From positions 4,154,001 through 4,218,000 of the forward strand of contig NZ_CP129212.1 in NCBI RefSeq assembly GCF_030413175.1: 64,000 bases of DNA. Direction: 5' to 3'. Both the position numbers and the translations under genes were made by a program. A model generated the notes under the pieces. It did no database searches, was not told the DNA's origin, and worked only from the letters and a program-made list of their open reading frames with translations. This document shows, one piece after another, positions 61,440 to 64,000 of the stretch (positions within the stretch are counted from its first letter, which is position 1; every line of letters begins with the position of its first letter). This DNA comes from Bradyrhizobium roseum. GTDB lineage: Bacteria > Pseudomonadota > Alphaproteobacteria > Rhizobiales > Xanthobacteraceae.

Positions 61440-63059
61440 TCACGCCTTTTTCTTCACGTCCTTGACGTTGGAAAAATTGATGCCCTCGGCCCGCTCACGG
61501 GTGTAGCCGAGATAGAATTCGTTCTTGGCCATGAACACCGGATCGCCGTCGACGTCGTCGGCGATGCCGGAGCCGTTGGCGGCGATGAAGGTGTCGAGTT
61601 TCTTGCGGTCGTCGGAAGAGACCCAGCGCGCCAATTGAAATTCCGAGACCTCGAATTCCACCGGCAGCGAGTATTCCGCATCGAGGCGTGCCTTGAGCAC
61701 GTCAAGCTGCAGCGGGCCGACGACGCCGACCAGCGCCGGCGCGCCGTCGCGCGGCCGGAACACCTGCACGACGCCCTCTTCCGACATCTGCTGCAGGGCT
61801 TCCTTCAGCTTCTTGGCCTTCATCGCATCCGTCAGGCGCACGCGGCGGACGATTTCCGGCGCAAAGCTGGGAACGCCGACAAAGGTGATGTCCTCACCTT
61901 CCGTCAGCGTATCGCCGATCCGCAAGGTGCCGTGGTTCGGGATGCCGACAACATCGCCGGCATACGCCTCGTCGGCCACTGAACGGTCCTGCGCGAAGAA
62001 GAATTGCGGGCTCGACAGGCTCATGTTCTTGCCGGTCCGCACCAGCTTGGCCTTCATGCCGCGACTGAGCTTGCCCGAGCACAGCCGCGCAAAGGCGATA
62101 CGGTCGCGGTGGTTGGGATCCATGTTGGCCTGGATCTTGAACACGAACGCGCTCATGCGCGGCTCGGCCGCCTCGACCTTGCGCAGATTGGATTCCTGCG
62201 CGCGCGGCGGCGGTGCGAACTTGCCGAGGCCTTCCAGCAGGTCGCCGACGCCGAAATTGCGCAGCGCGCTGCCGAAATAGACCGGCGTCAGATGGCCCTC
62301 GCGAAACGCCTCCAGCTCGAACGGCTTGCAGGCTTCGGAGACCAGCGCGAGTTCGTCCTTGATTTCGCCAACGTCGAGGTTGGCGTTGCGCCCGGCGAGA
62401 TCGGCGATGTCGATCTGCTCGGTCGCGCCGGTCTTGGCGCCGCCGCCTTCGAGCAGTCGCACGCCGCCATTGACGACATCGTAGGTGCCGAGGAAATCGC
62501 GGCCGCGACCGACCGGCCAGGTCATCGGCGTGGTGTCGAGCGCCAGCGTCTTCTCGATCTCGTCCAGCAGGTCGAACGTATCGCGGCTCTCGCGGTCCAT
62601 CTTGTTGATGAAGGTGATGATCGGAATGTCGCGCAGCCGGCACACTTCGAACAGTTTTCGGGTGCGTGCCTCGATGCCCTTGGCCGCGTCGATCACCATC
62701 ACCGCGGAATCGACCGCCGTCAGCGTGCGATAAGTGTCCTCGGAAAAGTCCTCGTGACCTGGCGTATCCAGCAGGTTGAAGACGAGGTCCTGGAACTCGA
62801 ACGTCATCACCGAGGTCACGACCGAGATGCCGCGCTCGCGCTCGATCTTCATCCAGTCGGAGCGGGTGTTGCGACGCTCGCCCTTGGCCTTGACCTGCCC
62901 CGCCAGATTGATCGCGCCGCCGAACAGCAGCAGCTTTTCGGTCAGCGTGGTCTTGCCGGCGTCCGGATGGGAAATGATCGCAAACGTGCGCCGCCGCGCC
63001 ACTTCATCGGCAAGCGGCGAGCGGGACGGCGATTCGGCATTGATGACGATGTCGGACAT
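61440..63059 (-). CDS. prfC: peptide chain release factor 3
   Basis: A 539-residue GTPase that removes RF1 and RF2 from the ribosome after termination. G motifs are SHPDAGKTTLTEK, the DTPGHEDFSED switch, and NKMDRE. The later domains have the RF3 segment SALRNFGVGDLLEGL. The start at 63059 (MSDIVINAE) was chosen over an in-frame ATG 13 codons upstream, which lacks family resemblance. Confidence 0.96.
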   Translation of the reverse strand: MSDIVINAESPSRSPLADEVARRRTFAIISHPDAGKTTLTEKLLLFGGAINLAGQVKAKGERRNTRSDWMKIERERGISVVTSVMTFEFQDLVFNLLDTPGHEDFSEDTYRTLTAVDSAVMVIDAAKGIEARTRKLFEVCRLRDIPIITFINKMDRESRDTFDLLDEIEKTLALDTTPMTWPVGRGRDFLGTYDVVNGGVRLLEGGGAKTGATEQIDIADLAGRNANLDVGEIKDELALVSEACKPFELEAFREGHLTPVYFGSALRNFGVGDLLEGLGKFAPPPRAQESNLRKVEAAEPRMSAFVFKIQANMDPNHRDRIAFARLCSGKLSRGMKAKLVRTGKNMSLSSPQFFFAQDRSVADEAYAGDVVGIPNHGTLRIGDTLTEGEDITFVGVPSFAPEIVRRVRLTDAMKAKKLKEALQQMSEEGVVQVFRPRDGAPALVGVVGPLQLDVLKARLDAEYSLPVEFEVSEFQLARWVSSDDRKKLDTFIAANGSGIADDVDGDPVFMAKNEFYLGYTRERAEGINFSNVKDVKKKA

Positions 63060-63148
63060 GAGGCACGAGCGTTTGGCAGGGAAATTTGGGCTAATCAAGC
63101 CTCATTTGGTGATTGTGGAACCCGCTCACCAGCCCCATATCGCCGTGT

Positions 63149-63209
63149 GGAAGGACGACCTTCCTTTTCACGGCATTTTGGCGGGGACGGCCCTGCCCGG
63201 TTTGGAGGG
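63149..63209 (+). promoter_or_regulatory. guanidine-II riboswitch (mini-ykkC)
   Basis: Two hairpins with ACGR loops, the hallmark of the guanidine-II class. P1 pairs GGAAGG (63149-63154) with CCTTCC (63159-63164) around ACGA. P2 pairs GCGGGG (63181-63186) with CCCTGC (63191-63196), with one G-U, around ACGG. A 16-base linker joins them. The ribosome site GGAGGG (63204-63209) lies seven bases after P2, so guanidine binding would free it for translation of sugE. The next gene is the expected target. Confidence 0.88.
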
Positions 63210-63214
63210 TCGTG

Positions 63215-63538
63215 ATGGCGTGGGCTGTGTTGTTTGCCGCAGGTCTGCTCGAAATCGGTTGGGCCATCGGTCTCAAATACACCGAAGGTTTTACGCGTCT
63301 GATACCGTCGGTGCTCACGCTGGCGGCGATGACCGGGAGCATCGTCCTGCTCGGCCTCGCCCTGAAAACGCTGCCGATCGGAACGGCTTACGCGGTCTGG
63401 ACCGGTATTGGTGCGGTCGGGACGGCGATCCTCGGCATCGCCCTGTTCGGCGAGCCTGCCACGCTTGCCCGCCTCGCCTGCATCGGACTGATCGTGGCAG
63501 GCATCCTCGGGCTCAAACTCGTCAGCGGATCAGCGTAG
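63215..63538 (+). CDS. sugE: guanidinium exporter of the SMR family
   Basis: A 107-residue four-helix small multidrug resistance protein. It starts [20 protein letters not shown], with the essential membrane Glu13 (LLEIGW), then [20 protein letters not shown] and ends LVSGSA. SugE/Gdx members export guanidinium in exchange for protons. The guanidine-II riboswitch directly upstream makes that substrate very likely here. Confidence 0.93.
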
Positions 63539-64000
63539 CAACTGCACCGCCCAGTAGGTCAGCGCCGCCACGATGGCGGACGCCGGAATGGTGATCACCC
63601 AGGCGTAGACGATCGAACTCGCCACGTTCCAGCGGACCGCCGAAACCCGCCGCGCTGCGCCGACGCCGACGATGGCGCCGGTAATGGTATGGGTCGTGGA
63701 GACGGGAATCCCCAGATAGGTCGCCATGAACAGCGTCGCCGCCCCGCCGGTCTCGGCGCAAAAACCCTGCATCGGCGTCAGCTTGGTGATCCGCAGCCCC
63801 ATGGTGCGGACGATCCGCCAGCCGCCCATCAGCGTGCCCAGCCCCATCGCGGCCTGGCAGGAGATCACGACCCAGAACGGAATGCTGAATTCGCTGCCGA
63901 GATGCCCTTGCGAGTACAGCAGGACGGCGATGATGCCCATGGTCTTCTGCGCGTCGTTGCCGCCATGGCCGAGCGAATAGAGTGAGGCCGAGACGAATTG
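63530..64000 (-). CDS. inorganic phosphate transporter, PiT family (partial)
   Basis: The C-terminal 156 residues of a PiT permease; the gene runs off the window. The repeat motif [16 protein letters not shown] near the window edge, then [20 protein letters not shown] and [20 protein letters not shown], identify the C-terminal half. Such permeases take up phosphate with protons or sodium. Its stop lies within the 3' end of sugE, so the two convergent genes overlap by 9 bases. Confidence 0.9.

Follow-up and report, generated by a model that had tools for sequence, protein, structure and literature searches.

In front of the sugE/gdx gene of Bradyrhizobium roseum, two short hairpins precede the ribosome-binding site, which raises the question of whether this leader is a guanidine riboswitch and, if so, how it would control the gene. 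When the window, the whole 64-kb stretch of DNA that was analysed, was scanned with Rfam at gathering thresholds, the sole match of any family was to RF01068, the Guanidine-II (mini-ykkC) model, at 43.5 bits (E 2.5e-5; gathering score, 32 bits; Table 1). A search of the genome (7.32 Mb, single contig) gave one Guanidine-II match, at the same site (E 6.7e-7), and no second copy. The alignment spans 48 of 48 model positions and contains one non-standard pair, a U-U close to the base of P1. The sequence-only reading, which had named a covariance-model scan as its check, had claimed the full guanidine-II pattern, and the score above the curated cut-off bears this out. We put the probability that the leader is a Guanidine-II riboswitch turning gdx translation ON, with switch, sense and gene taken together, at about 0.95.

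Table 1. Features of the gdx leader region, in window coordinates
Feature	Position	Strand	Evidence
Likely -35 hexamer TTGTGG	63113..63118	+	Conserved spacing to -10-like hexamer in genus leaders
Likely -10 hexamer CATATC	63136..63141	+	Conserved AUA-type element ahead of P1
Guanidine-II (mini-ykkC) riboswitch aptamer, RF01068	63147..63195	+	Rfam covariance match, 43.5 bits
P1 hairpin, 6 bp, GGAAGG-ACGA-CCUUCC, ACGA loop 63155-63158	63149..63164	+	Sequence, Rfam alignment, fold
P2 hairpin, 7 bp, GGCGGGG-ACGG-CCCUGCC, ACGG loop 63187-63190	63180..63197	+	Sequence, Rfam alignment of 5-bp core, pair counts
P2 loop and 3' arm ACGGCCCU, proposed anti-SD strand of ligand-free form	63187..63194	+	8 contiguous pairs, fold
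SD GGAGGG (63204-63209) and spacer UCGU, antisense to P2 loop/3' arm	63204..63213	+	Sequence, pair counts, conservation
sugE/gdx, SMR-family guanidinium exporter, 107 aa	63215..63538	+	NF008512, PDB relatives, only PF00893 match in genome

Both stems, with their ACGA and ACGG loops, are present as the earlier reading had described them. P2 has 7 pairs, including one G-U, of which the Rfam model takes in a 5-pair core (63182-63195). The cores of P1 and P2 are 17 nt apart; the gap is 15 nt when P2 is counted with 7 bp or P1 with the 8 bp of Rfam, hence the spacing of 16 first proposed is correct to within one base. The ribosome site, placed seven bases after the second stem, lies 8 or 6 bases downstream of it, counted from the core of P2 or from the full 7 bp, respectively. 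The features of the class are thus found together, namely two GC-rich hairpins with the ACGR loop signature given for Guanidine-II (PMC9300104), 15-17 nt between the stems, and an SD and gdx adjoining; a linker range of 7-40 nt is described for the class in PMC7544219. CG dinucleotides stand in both loops (63156-63157 and 63188-63189) and are predicted to be able to kiss, and the aptamer ends 19 nt ahead of the gdx start codon. The bare pattern, defined as two hairpins with ACGR loops, each stem having at least 5 bp and the loops being separated by 12-60 nt, on either strand, is seen once in the window; of 100 first-order random sequences of 64 kb, 4 contain it. It is only moderately rare, and hence what decides the matter is the covariance score along with the gene context. 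Tandem hairpins arising by chance are ruled out by that score together with the place before the SD of the cognate gene. Judged from its sequence, the aptamer is an ordinary, well-supported Guanidine-II riboswitch preceding gdx.

The gdx reading frame runs from an ATG at 63215-63217 to a stop codon at 63536-63538, an in-frame GTG at 63212 being the less likely start. Its product scores 144.4 bits with NCBIfam NF008512 (SugE; cut-off 126), and the nearest solved relatives are 6wk5 chain B (E 4.8e-31) and 8vxu (E 1.7e-30). The chain of the best relative, common to PDB entries 6wk5/6wk8/6wk9, is one that we take to be Gdx-Clo. The translation has E13, W16, S42, Y59 and W62, which are the Gdx-Clo binding residues; the roles of E13, S42, Y59 and W62 in the SMR site have been described for Gdx-Clo, and W16 is reported as conserved in Gdx, whereas glycine or alanine stands there in Qac-type SMRs (PMC7695847). 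By the family score, the PDB relatives and the binding-site residues, the downstream gene does belong to the cognate guanidinium exporter family, as had been claimed, and it is the sole SMR gene of the genome (single PF00893 match). That the aptamer is real and the chief substrate of the exporter nevertheless another cation, for example quaternary ammonium compounds, is very unlikely, as the best PDB relative is the chain that is presumably Gdx-Clo. The presence of the Gdx-typical W16 (PMC7695847) likewise speaks against another substrate, whereas NF008512 itself carries the name quaternary ammonium efflux SMR transporter, Gdx-linked QAC tolerance is given in a review (PMC12186494) and low-affinity Cs+ export is reported from a study in E. 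coli (PMC13064478).

Among the other guanidine functions searched for in the B. roseum genome, the Guanidine-I riboswitch had no match at E 0.001, and the urea/guanidine carboxylase had none above the model cut-off, with partial matches only (best 556/1304 bits). The single DUF1989 protein reaches neither of the two UAAP cut-offs, and the single arginase-family protein is named arginase. With Guanidine-I, carboxylase and UAAP absent above the cut-offs and the arginase-family protein an arginase, export is, as far as gene content indicates, the only guanidine-specific response of the genome among the families searched, which were these together with Guanidine-II and the SMR exporters. The earlier statement that the organism meets and expels guanidine goes too far as regards an encounter with guanidine now; what does stand, from the sequence, is that the lineage keeps a module for guanidine sensing and export.

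Of the 146 genus genomes searched, 104 have a match to RF01068, 97 of them above the cut-off; 120 matches were returned from the 104 genomes, of which 110 loci, that of B. roseum included, were taken up and 10 low-scoring ones left out. SugE is carried by 95 of the 110 loci, and both hairpins are found by the search rule in 93. A second set of Gdx loci from named genomes comprised the best 80 of 571 confirmed relatives (597 stretches). Among these best 80, Guanidine-II scores above the gathering score in 36 and both hairpins are present by the search rule in 45, an Rfam scan gave two further matches, both tRNA, and the two closest full-length SugE relatives are from Bradyrhizobium (89 and 88% identity). 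On its 5' side, gdx is divergent from prfC (likely ATG at 63059, - strand), and on its 3' side it converges with a phosphate-permease-like gene that is cut by the window end and does not reach the NCBIfam cut-offs (62 bits with the PitA model). The coding regions of gdx and the permease-like gene overlap by 9 nt (63530-63538). Among 17 three-kb genus loci with sugE, 15 retain the divergent prfC and 15 the permease neighbour; in the 80 named loci (best 80 of 571 relatives), these neighbours are retained in 30 and 29, respectively. Merging of identical leaders from all sources left 125 distinct ones, namely 88 from the genus set, 13 from further Bradyrhizobium and 24 others; merging over other lengths gave 91 genus leaders (longer stretch, used for entropy) and 93 (whole 140 nt, used for promoter elements).

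Translational ON control is the best reading of the locus. Transcriptional control by a terminator was considered and rejected, as no terminator-like site was found in 63000-63700; shuffled sequences average only 0.6 such sites, hence this absence is a weak argument for translational control. The class mechanism of Guanidine-II has been described (PMC9561414, PMC9300104, PMC7544219), and proton-coupled guanidinium export is covered in a review (PMC12186494). Applied to B. roseum, transcription would begin at or beside P1, and as long as guanidine is absent ACGGCCCU, from the P2 loop and 3' arm, would capture the SD and spacer AGGGUCGU. In the B. roseum leader, a pairing of UCACGGC with GUCGUGA, which involves the linker, may compete with this, and either pairing would hide the ribosome site. 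Guanidinium in the ACGA and ACGG loops would then allow P1 and P2 to kiss via their CG dinucleotides, kissing would keep P2 folded and free the SD, and the Gdx so made would export guanidinium in exchange for protons. Taken alone, the P2-antisense step has even odds in our estimate.

The basis for this step is that ACGGCCCU (63187-63194) and AGGGUCGU (63206-63213) are complementary over 8 contiguous pairs. At least 7 contiguous P2:SD pairs are found in 59 of the 88 distinct genus leaders and at least 8 in 56, counts that are non-independent because the sequences are related. With random spacers, at least 7 pairs arise in 5.9% and 8 pairs in 1.3% of cases, and with real upstream 5-mers in 7.5% and 0.6%, respectively. 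In folds of 63141-63229, the P2:SD pairing probability of the window's own leader is reached by 26 of 2000 random 5-nt spacers, and by 2 of 30 permutations of the real spacer, the real one counted. At least 7 pairs are also present in 8 of the 13 further Bradyrhizobium leaders, compared with 1 of the 24 others, and the long P2:SD antisense is thus mostly missing outside Bradyrhizobium. The one exception, L109, comes from an alphaproteobacterial MAG outside Bradyrhizobium and has a 9-nt P2:SD antisense, in which ACGG stands with CCGU, giving G-C where A-U stands in most Bradyrhizobium leaders. Several leaders have a mismatch at this position (loop position 4), and covariation is therefore weak; the antisense evidence is conservation rather than covariation, since ligand binding fixes the P2 loop. 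In the 61 of 91 genus leaders that have GGAGG followed by 6 nt, the last 6 nt before the start are conserved, with a mean entropy of 0.40 bit. The mean is 1.26 immediately upstream of the SD and 1.37 in the linker, and the codon positions average 0.62 bit for the third and 0.26 for the first and second.

Where the RNA begins bears on which partner the SD can have. In 82 of the 93 distinct genus leaders, an AUA-type element lies within the 22 nt that precede the P1 core, in 76 of the 82 at a distance of 6-8 nt. A TTG hexamer lies exactly 17 nt from the -10-like hexamer in 65 of the 93, with varying bases between and CATAT invariant across these 65; the spacing is 16 nt in 1 leader and 18 nt in 1, and of the remainder 17 are without TTG at 15-19 nt and 9 without a -10-like hexamer. 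A generic sigma-70 consensus scan found no promoter, and the promoter call therefore rests on conservation, part of which could be due to the divergent prfC promoter. The position of these elements suggests that the RNA is likely to start near 63147-63149, at P1, and such an RNA would be without a P0 helix of the P. aeruginosa type. With the conserved promoter-like sequence ending at 63141, transcription probably begins downstream of the 5' flank. Folds also show an outer P1 helix, GCCGUG/CACGGC (63142-63147 with 63169-63174), which was set aside, its 5' strand being probably mostly untranscribed. Given the SD antisense and an RNA start at P1, guanidine binding and masking of the ribosome site may be alternative roles of one set of P2 nucleotides. 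It is about an even bet that Bradyrhizobium has in this way a compact direct-competition design, in which the RNA starts at P1, the SD and spacer have evolved complementarity to the P2 loop and 3' arm, and the ligand-binding nucleotides serve as the anti-SD, without a separate expression platform or P0 helix.

In the minimum-energy fold of 63130-63240, ACGGCCCU pairs with AGGGUCGU and P2 is destroyed (z = -1.3 against shuffles, 19 of 200 of which are equally stable). At 30 C, free folding of 63141-63229 pairs the SD with a probability of 0.83 (0.72 through P2); enforcing P1 and P2 costs 1.5 kcal/mol and lowers this to 0.29. This stretch, the one with clean SD release, starts 5' of the likely RNA start. 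The corresponding values are 0.81 free (0.46 through P2) and 0.64 enforced for 63147-63226, 0.70 (0.01 through P2) and 0.67 for 63147-63217, and 0.81 (0.07 through P2) and 0.80 for 63125-63244, with hardly any release in these stretches. Over 132 start/end combinations, the SD is paired to at least 0.5 (to one decimal) in all 132, and P2 is the main partner in 63; among 60 combinations with starts at 63146-63149, it is the main partner in 12. In the rest, the SD is held by the 5' flank, linker, P1 or coding region. SD sequestration is hence more robustly predicted than its partner.

It is possible, if the less favoured view, that the riboswitch is the same and the SD is hidden by another anti-SD, either the P1-P2 linker or a P0 helix formed with the 5' flank, a view that overlaps with the main reading. 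In several folds that retain both P1 and P2, the partner of the SD is the linker (63147-63217) or the 5' flank (63125-63244), and published models of the class place the anti-SD in the linker for E. coli (PMC9300104) and in P0 for P. aeruginosa (PMC9561414). Against the linker, when the 81 genus leaders with GGAGG were folded from one base before the P1 core, the SD paired predominantly with the P2 loop and 3' arm in 56, 71 and 70 leaders at three 3' ends, and with the linker in 10, 0 and 0. The linker is also, with its mean entropy of 1.37, among the most variable parts of the leader. Against P0, the promoter-like element ending at 63141 makes it probable that the 5' flank is not transcribed, and a P0 helix as the main anti-SD thus appears disfavoured. 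In the folding of all distinct leaders, from which L079 was left out as it is without the SD motif, P2:SD pairing exceeds 0.5 in 68 of the 88 genus leaders, yet it does so in 16 of 36 of the other set too, hence folding alone discriminates poorly between them.

The folds also bear on whether the leader still switches. Across the 88 genus leaders, enforcing P1 and P2 leaves a median SD pairing of 0.70, with values below 0.2 in 1 of 88, a weak release. Nearest-neighbour folding thus does not reproduce the ON form, which it does not model fairly as it ignores kissing loops and ligand. A decayed remnant, with the hairpins kept and regulation lost, would agree with the SD staying largely paired under enforced P1 and P2 (the genus median and three of the four window stretches) and with a folding energy only modestly better than that of shuffles. 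Such a remnant is nonetheless extremely unlikely, as the loops are intact, the P1 and P2 cores are fully paired, the score is well above the cut-off, and the P2 columns are nearly invariant in the 61 genus leaders while the linker varies.

Outside the genus, the closest parallels are found in three known systems, and the published models of how Guanidine-II exposes the SD differ between species (PMC9300104, PMC9561414, PMC5486947). The gdx/sugE leader of E. coli K-12 (NC_000913.3) resembles that of B. roseum in its P1 ACGA and P2 ACGG loops, its gene family and its place before the SD, but its longest P2:SD run is 3, compared with 8 in B. roseum. In the published model its anti-SD sits in the linker (PMC9300104), with which the lack of a P2:SD antisense agrees. 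The Guanidine-II RNA of P. aeruginosa is described as turning translation ON, as proposed here, and its two hairpins stand ahead of a transporter gene of the multidrug-resistance type; ligand-dependent ribosome loading was measured with a K1/2 of ~2.2 mM (PMC9561414). The model for that species forms a P0 helix from the 5' and 3' flanks (PMC9561414), whereas the 5' flank of B. roseum probably lies upstream of the RNA start. For Gloeobacter violaceus, Huang et al. (2017) pointed to a possible stem-loop that overlaps P2 and the ribosome site and excludes the folded riboswitch (PMC5486947), which is the same overlap logic as proposed for B. roseum. Their passage concerns that species alone, and its leader is compared here by description, whereas in Bradyrhizobium the spacer is conserved genus-wide. 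The idea of an overlap between P2 and the ribosome site is therefore already in print, and the addition made here is its conservation across the genus. No account of a Guanidine-II gdx leader in Bradyrhizobium was found, judged by title for the genus, in literature searches on the class and on guanidine riboswitches in the genus; P2-SD pairing may already be described in Sherlock 2017, Reiss and Strobel 2017 or Slipski 2020. A well-studied class gains the chromosomal gdx riboswitch of a soil bacterium, and a leader whose spacer mirrors P2 is a clean test case for aptamer nucleotides that double as anti-SD; guanidine biology as known is unchanged by the B. roseum riboswitch.

The RNA family is also found in front of another gene in the genus. 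In at least one genus locus, L012, a Guanidine-II RNA (1501-1549, 43.8 bits) stands before a UAAP1-type gene (TIGR03425, 1574-2419) and after a reading frame that resembles an ABC-transporter ATPase. The locus is likely, from its gene content, a guanidine assimilation operon. The same RNA family thus precedes a urea-amidolyase-associated gene there, whereas in B. roseum its single match lies before gdx. Judged by eye, leaders of the L012 type occur in several of the other 14 genus loci without SugE. Two further loci, L023 and L025, have gdx with the riboswitch, and are without a divergent prfC in 3 kb and without a -10-like element before P1; as both are missing, this suggests that gdx is a relocated copy in these two loci.
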